Position numbers and translations under genes: made by a program
DNA from: Collinsella tanakaei
GTDB taxonomy: Bacteria > Actinomycetota > Coriobacteriia > Coriobacteriales > Coriobacteriaceae
DNA: 64,000 bases
Assembly (NCBI RefSeq): GCF_030373545.1
Contig: NZ_JAUDCO010000002.1
Coordinates: 248,001-312,000 of the forward strand
Direction of reading: 5' to 3'
Shown here: one piece after another, positions 25,332 through 36,625 of the stretch
How positions within the stretch are numbered: the first letter of the stretch is position 1
How the letters are laid out: every line of letters begins with the position of its first letter
Notes under the pieces: generated by a model
What the model was told of the DNA's origin: nothing
The model's input: only the letters and a program-made list of their open reading frames with translations
Databases searched by the model: none

Positions 25332-25360
25332 TTGACTGCGAACAGCTGTTCGACTATAGT
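25332..25360 (+). promoter_or_regulatory. recA promoter with LexA box in the spacer
   Basis: -35 TTGACT (25332-25337), 17-bp spacer, -10 TATAGT (25355-25360). The spacer contains CGAACAGCTGTTCG at 25339-25352, a perfect 14-bp palindrome matching the GAAC-N4-GTTC LexA site of Bacillus and actinobacteria. LexA bound here would cover both promoter elements. lexA itself is at 34874-35515. Confidence 0.92.
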
Positions 25361-25392: not shown

Positions 25393-26499
25393 ATGGCTAA
25401 GAGCTCAACCCCCGCGAAGCAGGTTCACGAGCGCACGTATGGCGCCGAGCGCGACAAGATGGTCGAGGTCACCAAGGCCGAGATCGAGAAGAAATTCGGC
25501 ACCGGTTCCATCATGCGCTATGGCGATGGCGGTCCCGAGCTCGAAGTCGAGGCGATCCCCACGGGAGCGCTCTCCCTCGACGCCGCATTGGGCATCGGGG
25601 GCGTTCCCCGCGGTCGCATCATCGAGATCTACGGCCCCGAGTCCTCGGGTAAGACCACCCTTTCGCTTGAGATCCTCGCCGAGGCGCAGGCCGAAGGGGG
25701 AGTGGTGGCGTTCATCGACGCTGAGCACGCCCTGGATCCCGGCTATGCCGCTCGCATCGGAGTCGATATCGACGAGGTGCTGATCTCCCAGCCTGACACC
25801 GGTGAGCAGGCACTTGAGATCTGCGACATGCTCGTCCGCTCGGGCGCCATCGACGTGGTCGTCATCGACTCCGTCGCCGCCCTCGTGCCTCGCGCCGAGA
25901 TCGAAGGCGAGATCGGAGACTCCTCGGTCGGTCTTCAGGCGCGCCTCATGAGCCAGGCTCTTCGCAAGCTTGCCGGCTCGCTCGCAAAGTCCCGCACCAC
26001 CTGCATCTTCATCAACCAGCTTCGCGAGAAGATCGGAGTCATGTTCGGCAACCCCGAGACGACGACCGGTGGCCGCGCCCTGAAGTTCTTCTCGTCCGTG
26101 CGCATCGACATTCGACGCGTTGACAGCATCAAGGCCGGCAACGAGATCGTCGGCAGTCGCGTGCGCTGTAAAGTCGTCAAGAACAAGGTCGCTGCGCCCT
26201 TCAGGACCGCCGAGTTCGACATCATGTACGGCACCGGCATCTCCAAGGAGGGCTCTATCCTCGACATGGGTGTCGACTACGAGATCGTCAAGAAGTCCGG
26301 CGCCTGGTATACGTACGGCTCGGAGCGCCTGGGCCAGGGACGCGAGGCCGCCAAGGAGTTCCTGCGCAAGAACCCCGAGCTCTCCGATGAGATCGAGCAC
26401 AAGGTGCGCGTTGCGTGCGGTTTGGATTTCGATGATGAGTCGACCGGTGAGGCTGTCGAGGCGGCCGAGGTAGCCGAGACTGCGCTCAAGGCCGAGTAG
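25393..26499 (+). CDS. recA: Recombinase RecA
   Basis: ATP-dependent strand-exchange protein and LexA co-protease. The 368 residues contain the P-loop GPESSGKTT near residue 80, Walker [11 protein letters not shown], the MAW-like [12 protein letters not shown] segment and the DNA-binding loop [20 protein letters not shown]. The ATG at 25393 has an AAGGAGG site. It is transcribed from an SOS-regulated promoter just upstream and forms a pair with recX (5-bp gap). Confidence 0.98.
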
Positions 26500-34124: not shown

Positions 34125-34865
34125 CTAGAGAACTGCAAGCACCTCAAATACGAGAACGATCAGCACCTGATGGGCGAGGTAGACAACAAGGCTGCGCTGC
34201 CCGAGCCACGTCAGCGGTGGAACGAGATTGTGGTAGGCCAAATCCGGATATTCACCGCGATGGCGGGCGTTATAGCGCCGTGAAGCGAACGCACCGCTCA
34301 GATACATGAACGCAAAGGGAATGATGGGATAGTAGTCACCCGAGCTGAAACCCGCATCGGGCAGACCGAGCCAGGCAAGGCCCGGGATACCATAGGTCTG
34401 ATGGGGGACGTCCCACAGCGCGGCGAACAGCGCGAGACAGACGACGATGCCGAGAGCGCTCGGTATCCGGATAAGAATCCGCTGGGCAGCAGCCCATACG
34501 AGCGTGCAGGAGAACATGCAGAAGAGGATGCCGAAGTTGATGGGCGTGTCGAGAGCGGCAACGGTCGTCGCCAGCCAGACGAGGAGCGCCGCCGCTCCAT
34601 AGACCCCTGCGCGCCGAAGGTTGTTATGGGAGAAGCTCGTCATCCAGCCGGCGAGAAAAAGAAACGACCAGCTGATCGAAGCCCTCCAGACATCCTGTAT
34701 CAATGGGTCCAAAAACCAAGACACGTCGTAACCGTAGATATACGCCGCATCATAGGTCGCATGGAAGGCAATCATGGACACAAGAAGCAGGCCGCGCAGG
34801 GTATCCAGCAGCACGATACGCCTGCGCGACGGCTGGGCGGTCTGAGCGGAGGGGGACGCGTGCAT
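34125..34865 (-). CDS. DUF1624/heparan-acetyltransferase-like membrane protein
   Basis: Polytopic membrane protein of 246 residues with about seven hydrophobic segments. The N-terminal RRIVLLDTLRGLLLVSMIAFH and the C-terminal LGQRSLVVYLAHQ resemble the YeiB/OafB-like acyltransferase fold (DUF1624). Such proteins are often predicted to move acyl groups across the membrane. It lies just downstream of lexA on the same strand (8-bp gap) and is convergent with hflX, so it may be cotranscribed with lexA and be partly SOS-controlled. The substrate is unknown. Confidence 0.75.
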   Translation of the reverse strand: MHASPSAQTAQPSRRRIVLLDTLRGLLLVSMIAFHATYDAAYIYGYDVSWFLDPLIQDVWRASISWSFLFLAGWMTSFSHNNLRRAGVYGAAALLVWLATTVAALDTPINFGILFCMFSCTLVWAAAQRILIRIPSALGIVVCLALFAALWDVPHQTYGIPGLAWLGLPDAGFSSGDYYPIIPFAFMYLSGAFASRRYNARHRGEYPDLAYHNLVPPLTWLGQRSLVVYLAHQVLIVLVFEVLAVL

Positions 34866-34873
34866 GCGTTGTC

Positions 34874-35515
34874 CTAAAAACGCCTCATGAGTGCGACGAC
34901 CTTACCAAGAATCGTCGGGTTGGTGGCAAAGATTGGCTCCATGGCGTCGTTTTCGGGCTGCAGCCTCACGCGTCCCTGCTCCTTGTAAAACGTCTTGACC
35001 GTCGCCTCGCCGTCGATCATCGCAACGACGATCTCGCCGTTCATGGCGCTTTTCTGCTCGCGAACGATGATGTAGTCACCGTTGTAGATGCCGACGTTGA
35101 TCATTGAGTTCCCATGCACCTCGAGTACGAAGGAGCTCGAGTCCGTGGCGATCTCGGAGGGCAGCGTGAACGTGTCCTCGATATTCTGCTCGGCAAGAAT
35201 GGGCATGCCGGCGGCGACACGGCCGATAAGCGGCAGCGAAACGGTGCCGCGGTCGACCGGTTCTGTTACCTCCTGGGAGGGCTTGGCGGAGGTTCCGTCC
35301 TCGTTGAACACCTCGAGCGCGCGCGGCTTTGTCTTGTCGCGCTTGATCAGGCCGTGATCCTCGAGCGCCGAGAGGTGGGCGTGGACGGTGGAGGGGGAGG
35401 AGAGTCCGACGGCGGCAGCCATCTCGCGTACACTGGGCGGATAGCCCTTCTCCTGCTGGTACGTGCGAATGAAATCATAGATCTGCTGCTGACGCTTCGT
35501 GATCTTGCGTGCCAC
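34874..35515 (-). CDS. lexA: SOS repressor LexA
   Basis: Transcriptional repressor of the SOS regulon, inactivated by RecA-stimulated self-cleavage. The 213 residues have an N-terminal winged helix (PPSVREMAAAVGLSSPSTVH), the Ala-Gly cleavage site in GRVAAGMP, the catalytic Ser in EVHGNSMINVG and the catalytic Lys in GEATVKTFYK. The frame opens at 35548, but a perfect AAGGAGG site lies 6 nt before GTG 35515, which is preferred. Two LexA boxes (35561-35574 and 35589-35602) lie just upstream, so lexA is probably autoregulated. The gene is divergent from the LysM gene. Confidence 0.95.
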   Translation of the reverse strand: MARKITKRQQQIYDFIRTYQQEKGYPPSVREMAAAVGLSSPSTVHAHLSALEDHGLIKRDKTKPRALEVFNEDGTSAKPSQEVTEPVDRGTVSLPLIGRVAAGMPILAEQNIEDTFTLPSEIATDSSSFVLEVHGNSMINVGIYNGDYIIVREQKSAMNGEIVVAMIDGEATVKTFYKEQGRVRLQPENDAMEPIFATNPTILGKVVALMRRF

Positions 35516-35554
35516 GGCCTGCCTCCTTCTACCAAACATATGTTCCATTTTCTC

Positions 35555-35582
35555 TTGACAGGAACAACTGTTCGACCATAAT
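35555..35582 (+). promoter_or_regulatory. SOS promoter of the LysM gene with LexA box 1
   Basis: TTGACA (35555-35560), 16-bp spacer, CATAAT (35577-35582). GGAACAACTGTTCG at 35561-35574 fills the spacer and keeps the LexA core GAAC-N4-GTTC. The arrangement copies that of the recA promoter in this window. It reads toward the LysM gene at 35671 and also lies upstream of lexA on the other strand. Confidence 0.85.
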
Positions 35583-35588
35583 GATATA

Positions 35589-35602
35589 CGAACACTCGTT
35601 CT
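35589..35602. promoter_or_regulatory. LexA box 2 between lexA and the LysM gene
   Basis: CGAACACTCGTTCT keeps the GAAC-N4-GTTC core, 28 bp from the core of box 1. It would be just downstream of the LysM promoter -10 and upstream of lexA. Two boxes spaced this way would allow control of both divergent genes. Confidence 0.85.
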
Positions 35603-35670
35603 TATGCCAGAAGTTTTTGTCCGGGCGCCGAGGTATACCTGTCCTGTCAGCCCGATGAGAGGAGAGTTCC

Positions 35671-36084
35671 ATGAAGTCCTTTGCCATGGTCGACGGCAAT
35701 CTCGCTTTGGCGCCCGCTGCTCGCACGTCCGCGTTTCAGGTCATCGAAGGTCGACTCGATGCATCCGAGCATATTCCGGCGCCCGCGCCTCGCCGTGCGG
35801 AGCCCGATCGTCTTCACATCTTTATCGCTGCCGCGCTGATTGCCGTCTCGCTGATCGGAATGATCGGCGTCTTTCAGGCTCAGCAGGCTCAATTCGATGC
35901 TGCCCTGGCTCATGCCGATCGCCTGGAAATCGTCGTCGAGTCCGGCGACACGCTGTGGTCCATCGCGGAGGATCATCATATCGACGGGGTCGACACGCAG
36001 CAGACCGTCGATATCATCCGCAGTTGGAACGACCTTTCCGTGATCTCCCTGCAGCCGGGCGACACCATCGTCGTGCCGGCGTAG
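35671..36084 (+). CDS. SOS-controlled LysM membrane protein, YneA-like division inhibitor (predicted)
   Basis: A 137-residue protein with an N-terminal cytoplasmic segment, one transmembrane helix (about 48-68) and a C-terminal LysM domain (ESGDTLWSIAEDH ... LQPGDTIVVPA, about 86-137) that should face the cell wall. The gene is divergent from lexA and its promoter spacer holds a LexA box. In Bacillus subtilis, yneA has the same position, size class and domain layout and encodes the SOS cell-division inhibitor; actinobacteria have functional counterparts. The N-terminal cytoplasmic extension of about 45 residues is longer than in YneA. The GAGAGGAG site fixes the start. The function is inferred from context and domains. 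Confidence 0.75.
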   Translation: MKSFAMVDGNLALAPAARTSAFQVIEGRLDASEHIPAPAPRRAEPDRLHIFIAAALIAVSLIGMIGVFQAQQAQFDAALAHADRLEIVVESGDTLWSIAEDHHIDGVDTQQTVDIIRSWNDLSVISLQPGDTIVVPA

Positions 36085-36181
36085 CCATCGTCGCTTCTGT
36101 TGTTTGCCTAGCATCTCACAGGGTTTTCCGTACGCGTGGTATGCTCTTTGCGGTATCGGAGCATTCGTTCGGAGGAATCCC

Positions 36182-36625
36182 ATGCGTTGTCCCAAATGCG
36201 GCAAGGACACCACGCGCGTCGTTGATTCGCGGACGCAGGAGGTGACCAACGCCATCAAGCGTCGTCGTGAATGCCAGTCGTGCGGCTATCGCTTTACGAC
36301 GTTTGAGCGGTGCGAGGATCCCATCGAGGTTCTCAAAAGCGACGGCACCACTCAGCCGTTTGATCGCAACAAGCTGCTCGTCGGTCTCATGCGCGCCACC
36401 GCGAAGCGCGATATCGATCTCGCTTCCCTGAACGCCCTGATCGATGATATCGAGCACGAGCTCAGGGGTCGGACGCTGACCGCCGTCAGCTCCCACGAGA
36501 TCGGCGATATGGTCCTGAAACGGCTTGAGCGCATCGATAAGGTCGCCTATATCCGCTTCGCTTCCGTGTACCGTGATTTCAAGGATGTCGACGAATTTCT
36601 CGATGAACTCGATAAGCTGAGGTGA
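36182..36625 (+). CDS. nrdR: Transcriptional repressor NrdR
   Basis: ATP-cone, zinc-ribbon repressor of ribonucleotide reductase genes. The 147 residues begin MRCPKCGKDTTRVVDSR with the CxxC...CxxC ribbon (CQSCGYRFTTFER), then the ATP-cone (about 46-136). A GGAGG site sets ATG 36182; the frame upstream is open but lacks a site. It lies between the SOS LysM gene and dut, grouping dNTP supply and quality with the damage response. No NrdR box was recognised in the window. Confidence 0.95.
   Translation: MRCPKCGKDTTRVVDSRTQEVTNAIKRRRECQSCGYRFTTFERCEDPIEVLKSDGTTQPFDRNKLLVGLMRATAKRDIDLASLNALIDDIEHELRGRTLTAVSSHEIGDMVLKRLERIDKVAYIRFASVYRDFKDVDEFLDELDKLR

Follow-up and report, generated by a model that had tools for sequence, protein, structure and literature searches.

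The lexA-adjacent, single-pass membrane proteins studied so far in Gram-positive bacteria, namely YneA, ChiZ, DivS, and SosA, all inhibit cell division (PMC6851548). YneA from Bacillus subtilis is encoded divergently from lexA under LexA control and combines a membrane helix with a LysM domain. Its helix binds TM7 of FtsW, as low-confidence AlphaFold models also suggest for ChiZ and SosA; its LysM domain is essential, the helix alone is not toxic, and the protein is rapidly cleared (PMC13396833). ChiZ (Rv2719c) from Mycobacterium tuberculosis, also divergent from lexA and controlled by both LexA and PafBC, has a disordered cytoplasmic N-terminus, one helix, and an external LysM domain (PMC8151990, PMC7355643). 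Its residues 1-64 plus the helix suffice for filamentation, the hydrolase activity once claimed for it is now regarded as probably a false positive (PMC7355643), and LysM seems unnecessary (PMC3989709). DivS, the SOS-induced, lexA-adjacent, single-pass division suppressor of Corynebacterium glutamicum, has no LysM domain (PMC6851548), and SosA from Staphylococcus aureus and SidA from Caulobacter are likewise small, LysM-less membrane inhibitors of division in the SOS response. Whether SOS division inhibitors need LysM is disputed: YneA cannot do without it, ChiZ apparently can, and DivS and SosA have none. A literature search for work on division control during the SOS response of Collinsella returned nothing.

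The window analyzed here, a stretch of 64,000 nucleotides from Collinsella tanakaei, carries the gene order recA...miaB-miaA-hflX...lexA, with lexA divergent from a LysM gene that is followed by nrdR. The LysM gene (35671..36084, plus strand) encodes a 137-residue membrane protein, a probable SOS division inhibitor of the ChiZ/DivS type, and is single-copy in 34 of 35 Collinsella genomes, the source genome counted. On its left, lexA (34874..35515, minus strand) encodes an S24 repressor/protease (TIGR00498, 238 bits; PF00717; PF01726), for which the GTG at 35515, preceded by a Shine-Dalgarno sequence, is probably the start, in preference to a possible ATG at 35548. On its right lies nrdR (36182..36625, plus strand; TIGR00244, 178 bits), a neighbor that belongs to an actinobacterial gene order; in M. 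tuberculosis, chiZ takes the same place, divergent from lexA and adjoining nrdR. Just downstream of lexA, a gene at 34125-34865 encodes a 246-residue membrane protein without an NCBIfam match.

Three LexA boxes occupy the lexA-LysM region, including the two exact ones that the first-pass annotation had placed there. The pattern GAACN4GTTC occurs at 35562-35573 (box 2) and 35590-35601 (box 3), and a box 1 with one mismatch (AAACATATGTTC, 35534..35545) lies 28 bp from box 2. Box 2 fills the 16-nucleotide spacer between TTGACA (35555-35560) and CATAAT (35577-35582), again as first described; this SOS promoter of the LysM gene, P1 (35555..35582, plus strand), has 11 of 12 consensus matches and is conserved in the window's family. 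Box 3 overlaps the expected P1 start and takes up the spacer between the elements of a putative lexA promoter (35581..35610, minus strand; CTGGCA at 35610-35605, N18, TATCAT at 35586-35581; 9 of 12 matches), the -10 element of which overlaps that of P1. With box 2 in one spacer and box 3 in the other, LexA bound there would block both promoters.

This arrangement recurs among relatives, whose families are labeled f1-f21, f1 being Coriobacteriaceae, the family of the window, and f2 Eggerthellaceae. Three boxes in 28-bp steps are the pattern throughout f1, TTGACAGGAACAACTGTTCG is nearly invariant across the 14 f1 loci tested, and by inspection the elements CTGGC/CTAGC and TAT(C/T)AT of the putative lexA promoter are conserved across the loci compared. 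Each of the 14 f1 loci and each of the 22 LysM-less f2 loci has one or more exact boxes and two or more near-boxes, far above the shuffle expectation of about 0.1, which argues against chance. Exact GAACN4GTTC sites number only 19 in the whole 2.2-Mb genome, and others among them precede recA, ruvC, and a Y-family polymerase gene; the recA box (25340..25351), about 40 bp before the gene (25393-26499), places recA in the same regulon. LexA control of the LysM gene is thus well supported at the level of its sites. SOS control of nrdR through a near-box (GAGCATTCGTTC, 36159-36170) was considered and set aside, since this site is shared with the closest relative alone, is absent in 27 other loci of the genus, and is probably due to chance. 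Elsewhere, a pair of exact LexA boxes at 26-bp spacing (G000:C1:21845-21882; L031:1946-1983) stands just before a long ORF without a Pfam match, a candidate SOS-controlled gene, and an exact palindromic box GAACATATGTTC (G000:C5:2781-2792; L034) lies some 65 bp upstream of where rpoB appears to start, an unexpected SOS target.

Between box 3 and the LysM gene lies a second candidate promoter, TGTCCG-N10-TATACC (35618..35639, plus strand), of the PafBC (RecA-independent) damage type. The consensus used for such RecA-NDp promoters was TGTC(G/A)G-N10-TA-N3-T, and the strict PafBC-type pattern has its sole match in the genome at this site. In M. tuberculosis, a PafBC motif in the same intergenic region acts on rv2719c (chiZ) and not on lexA, the rv2719c operon being driven by PafBC (PMC8151990). 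A looser form of the element is present at 14/14 f1 and 15/20 f5 loci and in most of the class; in its other orders nearly all sampled loci carry TGTCAG-N10-TAnnnT, which is the published mycobacterial PafBC motif (PMC8151990, PMC5656591). An adjacent pair of WYL genes in the genome matches PafB and PafC. Since TGTCCG and TATACC depart from the mycobacterial consensus, PafBC control of the LysM gene is something that we infer; this departure and the finding of no second such site in the genome count against it.

The encoded protein was correctly recognized at first pass as a single-pass membrane protein with a LysM domain. AlphaFold2 predicts residues 1-46 to be disordered, followed by a transmembrane helix with its extension (residues 47-81, 35809..35913; pLDDT >90 over most, hydropathy 2.7) and a LysM fold; PF01476 matches residues 88-136 (35932..36078) with 40.2 bits and E=3e-10. 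The predicted topology has a cytoplasmic N-terminus, one helix, and LysM outside. The claimed cytoplasmic extension of about 45 residues is real in the models, with 46 residues before the helix, and it contains two conserved elements: GNLAL at residues 9-13 (35695..35709) and FQVIEG at residues 22-27 (35734..35751; IIxFP in Eggerthellaceae). With 3.74 bits per column, the first is the most conserved part of the protein, against 2.99 for the second, 2.67 for LysM, 1.59 for the helix, and 1.22 for the linker. Across Collinsella, G-N-L-A-L falls within the first 13 residues and F-x-V-[IV]-x-G follows.

In each searched genome whose gene carries the N-terminal motif, a 36-column profile found nothing convincing beyond the lexA-adjacent gene (next best E 0.02), so that sharing with other proteins gives no hint of a partner. 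A search of solved structures with the whole protein found no relative, Foldseek matched LysM domains only, and AlphaFold offered no structural clue to the motif, which is disordered in LysM-bearing and LysM-less forms alike. Mimicry of the FtsZ tail and a beta-clamp motif were considered and set aside as improbable, since the consensus does not fit.

Among the described systems, the closest is ChiZ rather than YneA. The first-pass annotation had equated position and domain layout with those of yneA, and this stands for the divergence from lexA, LexA control, and the combination of helix and LysM; gene order, the predicted cytoplasmic N-terminus, and the candidate PafBC-type promoter match ChiZ. 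The curated YneA model (NCBIfam PRK14125) aligns residues 56-137 with 52.6 bits (E=3e-14), below its cut-off of 60, whereas a profile of the LysM part aligns with lexA-divergent proteins of other Actinomycetota with an hhalign E of 5.6e-28 (probability 99.8). Gene order, this LysM match, and the sub-cut-off YneA score together indicate a ChiZ-type protein, with YneA a more distant analogue that has no cytoplasmic extension and lies in a different gene neighborhood. Since ChiZ has 64 residues there, such an extension is not new as such. What differs is its content: the N-terminus of ChiZ is rich in Arg and Pro with a net charge of +10, while residues 1-47 of the window protein hold 6 basic and 6 acidic residues (net 0) and GNLAL...FQVIEG. 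The window protein has no Arg-rich N-terminus, a trait that marks ChiZ more than its group at large, although the segment is predicted to be disordered; this sequence difference counts against the ChiZ-type reading.

On sequence evidence, G[NST]xAL followed by a hydrophobic VIxGG/IIxFP element is common to the order Coriobacteriales, once per genome, at lexA. When lexA-divergent proteins were chosen for their ribosome site and helix, with no regard to the motif, G[NST]xA[LIV] preceded the helix in 30/34 proteins of f1 and f5 (13/14 and 17/20), where LysM is mostly present, and in 20/22 of f2, where it is absent in all, against a shuffle expectation of 0.25-0.42 per family. None of the 41 lexA-divergent proteins from other orders and classes had it. 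A profile built from the LysM-less f2 N-termini alone matches LysM-bearing f5 proteins with E down to 2.5e-6 and outgroup proteins with none below E 0.01, and hhalign of LysM-less against LysM-bearing alignments pairs exactly the N-motif segment (E=1e-6). There are also intermediate forms: L099 and L116, from two species of a single f5 genus, have GTSAL then VIDG and no LysM, a LysM-less Eggerthellaceae protein (L294) has GNLAL, and a LysM protein from Coriobacteriaceae (L219) carries the Eggerthellaceae-type second element EILTFP. The regular expressions and start choices carry some error, so a few loci without the motif may be mis-called, and the series is best supported in f1, f2, and f5, many loci in f4, f6, f7, and f8 being without a clear motif or ORF. 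In other orders of the class (L137-L166), lexA-divergent LysM proteins often end in a conserved extracytoplasmic A-x-x-R tail (for instance AMASR or ALAQR), absent in the window's order, that a protease may recognize.

A scan of 85,000 species genomes for the promoter only (P1 with boxes 2 and 3) retrieved, among the matches listed, almost only Coriobacteriia; within the same matches LysM is present in Collinsella and Enorma and absent in Gordonibacter, Paraeggerthella, Rubneribacter, Adlercreutzia, and other Eggerthellaceae. At the 68 listed loci with a helix protein of at least 60 residues, the motif occurs in 31 LysM-bearing and 33 LysM-less proteins (expected 0.6 each). Eggerthellaceae and other families have lost LysM and retained the promoter, LexA boxes, N-motif, and membrane helix. 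The PafBC-type element occurs at 31/31 LysM-bearing and 0/33 LysM-less motif loci among these matches; this association follows phylogeny and is broken in f5, where L099 and L116 have no LysM yet keep the element. Loss of PafBC in f2 as the cause of the element's loss was also considered, but the PafC search is weak outside f1 and its result only suggestive.

Reduction goes further within Eggerthellaceae, some of which have forms of 33-48 residues consisting of a short juxtamembrane stretch and the helix. In Adlercreutzia/Enterorhabdus (L086, L131, L226, L246, L247, L260, L290), the same promoter and a good ribosome site precede a 23-residue membrane peptide, M[SA]R[FY]EFP..FALST..[ST]F..[LF]FA. 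SidA is about as small. Five distinct sequences of this gene differ 44, 22, and 95 times at codon positions 1, 2, and 3, and identity falls from 76% to 27% right past the stop, so the ORF looks translated and selected; it is likely a gene missed by annotation. A LexA tree with other orders as outgroup places loss of LysM in f2/f4/f6/f7/f9/f10 and separately inside f5, several forks being weak and f8 unplaced. Our reading is that LysM is ancestral, that the N-motif would have arisen in the ancestor of the order, that LysM was probably lost at least twice, and that Adlercreutzia appears to have lost the motif too. The retained core is the helix, usually with the cytoplasmic motif, and LysM is optional, because relatives have lost LysM and the 33-48- and 23-residue forms persist. 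These LysM-less forms resemble DivS, compared here by description, as well as SosA and SidA, which have no known sequence kinship to the window protein and are likely of independent origin.

Taken together, the data make it likely that this is a ChiZ/DivS-type membrane protein, induced in the SOS response, which restrains septum formation during DNA repair. LexA on the 28-bp-spaced boxes would block the two face-to-face promoters of lexA and the LysM gene, damage would free both, and the PafBC-type promoter could add LexA-independent induction. In an N-in/C-out orientation, the helix would most likely dock on the septal wall-synthesis complex (FtsW/FtsI/FtsQ), LysM would hold the protein on septal peptidoglycan and be accessory in some lineages, and the disordered G[NST]xAL...VIxGG motif would find its partner in the cytoplasm, be it a division protein or the machinery by which the inhibitor is removed. 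Published work on ChiZ and YneA fits this assignment of roles. Of the first-pass proposal of an SOS division inhibitor, LexA control and the protein type are well supported, and division inhibition itself would follow by analogy. A damage-induced envelope-stress or wall-maintenance protein seems improbable and is the least favored of the readings weighed here: LysM binds peptidoglycan and wrong functions have been attached to members of this group in the past, as with the ChiZ hydrolase (PMC7355643), but all four studied proteins inhibit division (PMC6851548), and the LysM-less and 23-residue forms under the same promoter cannot act through LysM wall binding.

For the motif, a divisome protein is the leading candidate partner at a little short of an even chance, a protease or adaptor has about half that weight, and other partners take the rest. 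Were the motif a degron for ClpXP, ClpC, Lon, or FtsH, it would have no part in blocking division and would let division resume quickly after repair. It lies 7-20 residues from the N-terminus in a predicted-disordered stretch, a placement typical of N-terminal degrons; the cell disposes of YneA quickly (PMC13396833), and LysM-less forms expose almost nothing to extracytoplasmic proteases; still, VIxGG/IIxFP is also conserved at variable distance, which a bipartite binding site fits at least as well, and the 23-residue forms do without the motif. We regard the degron as rather unlikely, and a straightforward YneA orthologue, with an active helix and LysM and a passive N-terminal region, as distinctly less likely than that. 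YneA is the best NCBIfam match and shares the helix and LysM layout, but the score falls short of the curated cut-off, the N-motif is more conserved than LysM and helix, and several families lost LysM and kept the motif. The suspicion of the first-pass annotation that the extension matters was a good one: its motif is absent from the sampled outgroup proteins and outlasts LysM in evolution. YneA, which needs its LysM domain and whose helix is not toxic by itself, is by analogy the main argument against the helix as a minimal inhibitor, and LysM-less relatives may for this reason have changed function.

In the ChiZ/DivS-type reading, the distribution of the PafBC-type element suggests that control of division arrest by both LexA and PafBC dates far back in Actinomycetota and that Eggerthellaceae have since lost it. 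The short conserved cytoplasmic motif offers a bait for finding its partner. One gene, one locus, and one promoter span LysM-bearing, LysM-less, and 23-residue forms in related gut bacteria, a ready-made deletion series that makes the LysM question directly testable in one host. It is possible, though somewhat less likely than not, that Coriobacteriales evolved a class of SOS division inhibitor facing the cytoplasm, in which a new G[NST]xAL...VIxGG/IIxFP module on a ChiZ-type protein made LysM dispensable, after which two or more lineages dropped LysM and the protein became shorter step by step, down to a 23-residue membrane peptide, under one conserved LexA promoter. If true, this natural deletion series would show the membrane helix to be the minimal inhibitor.
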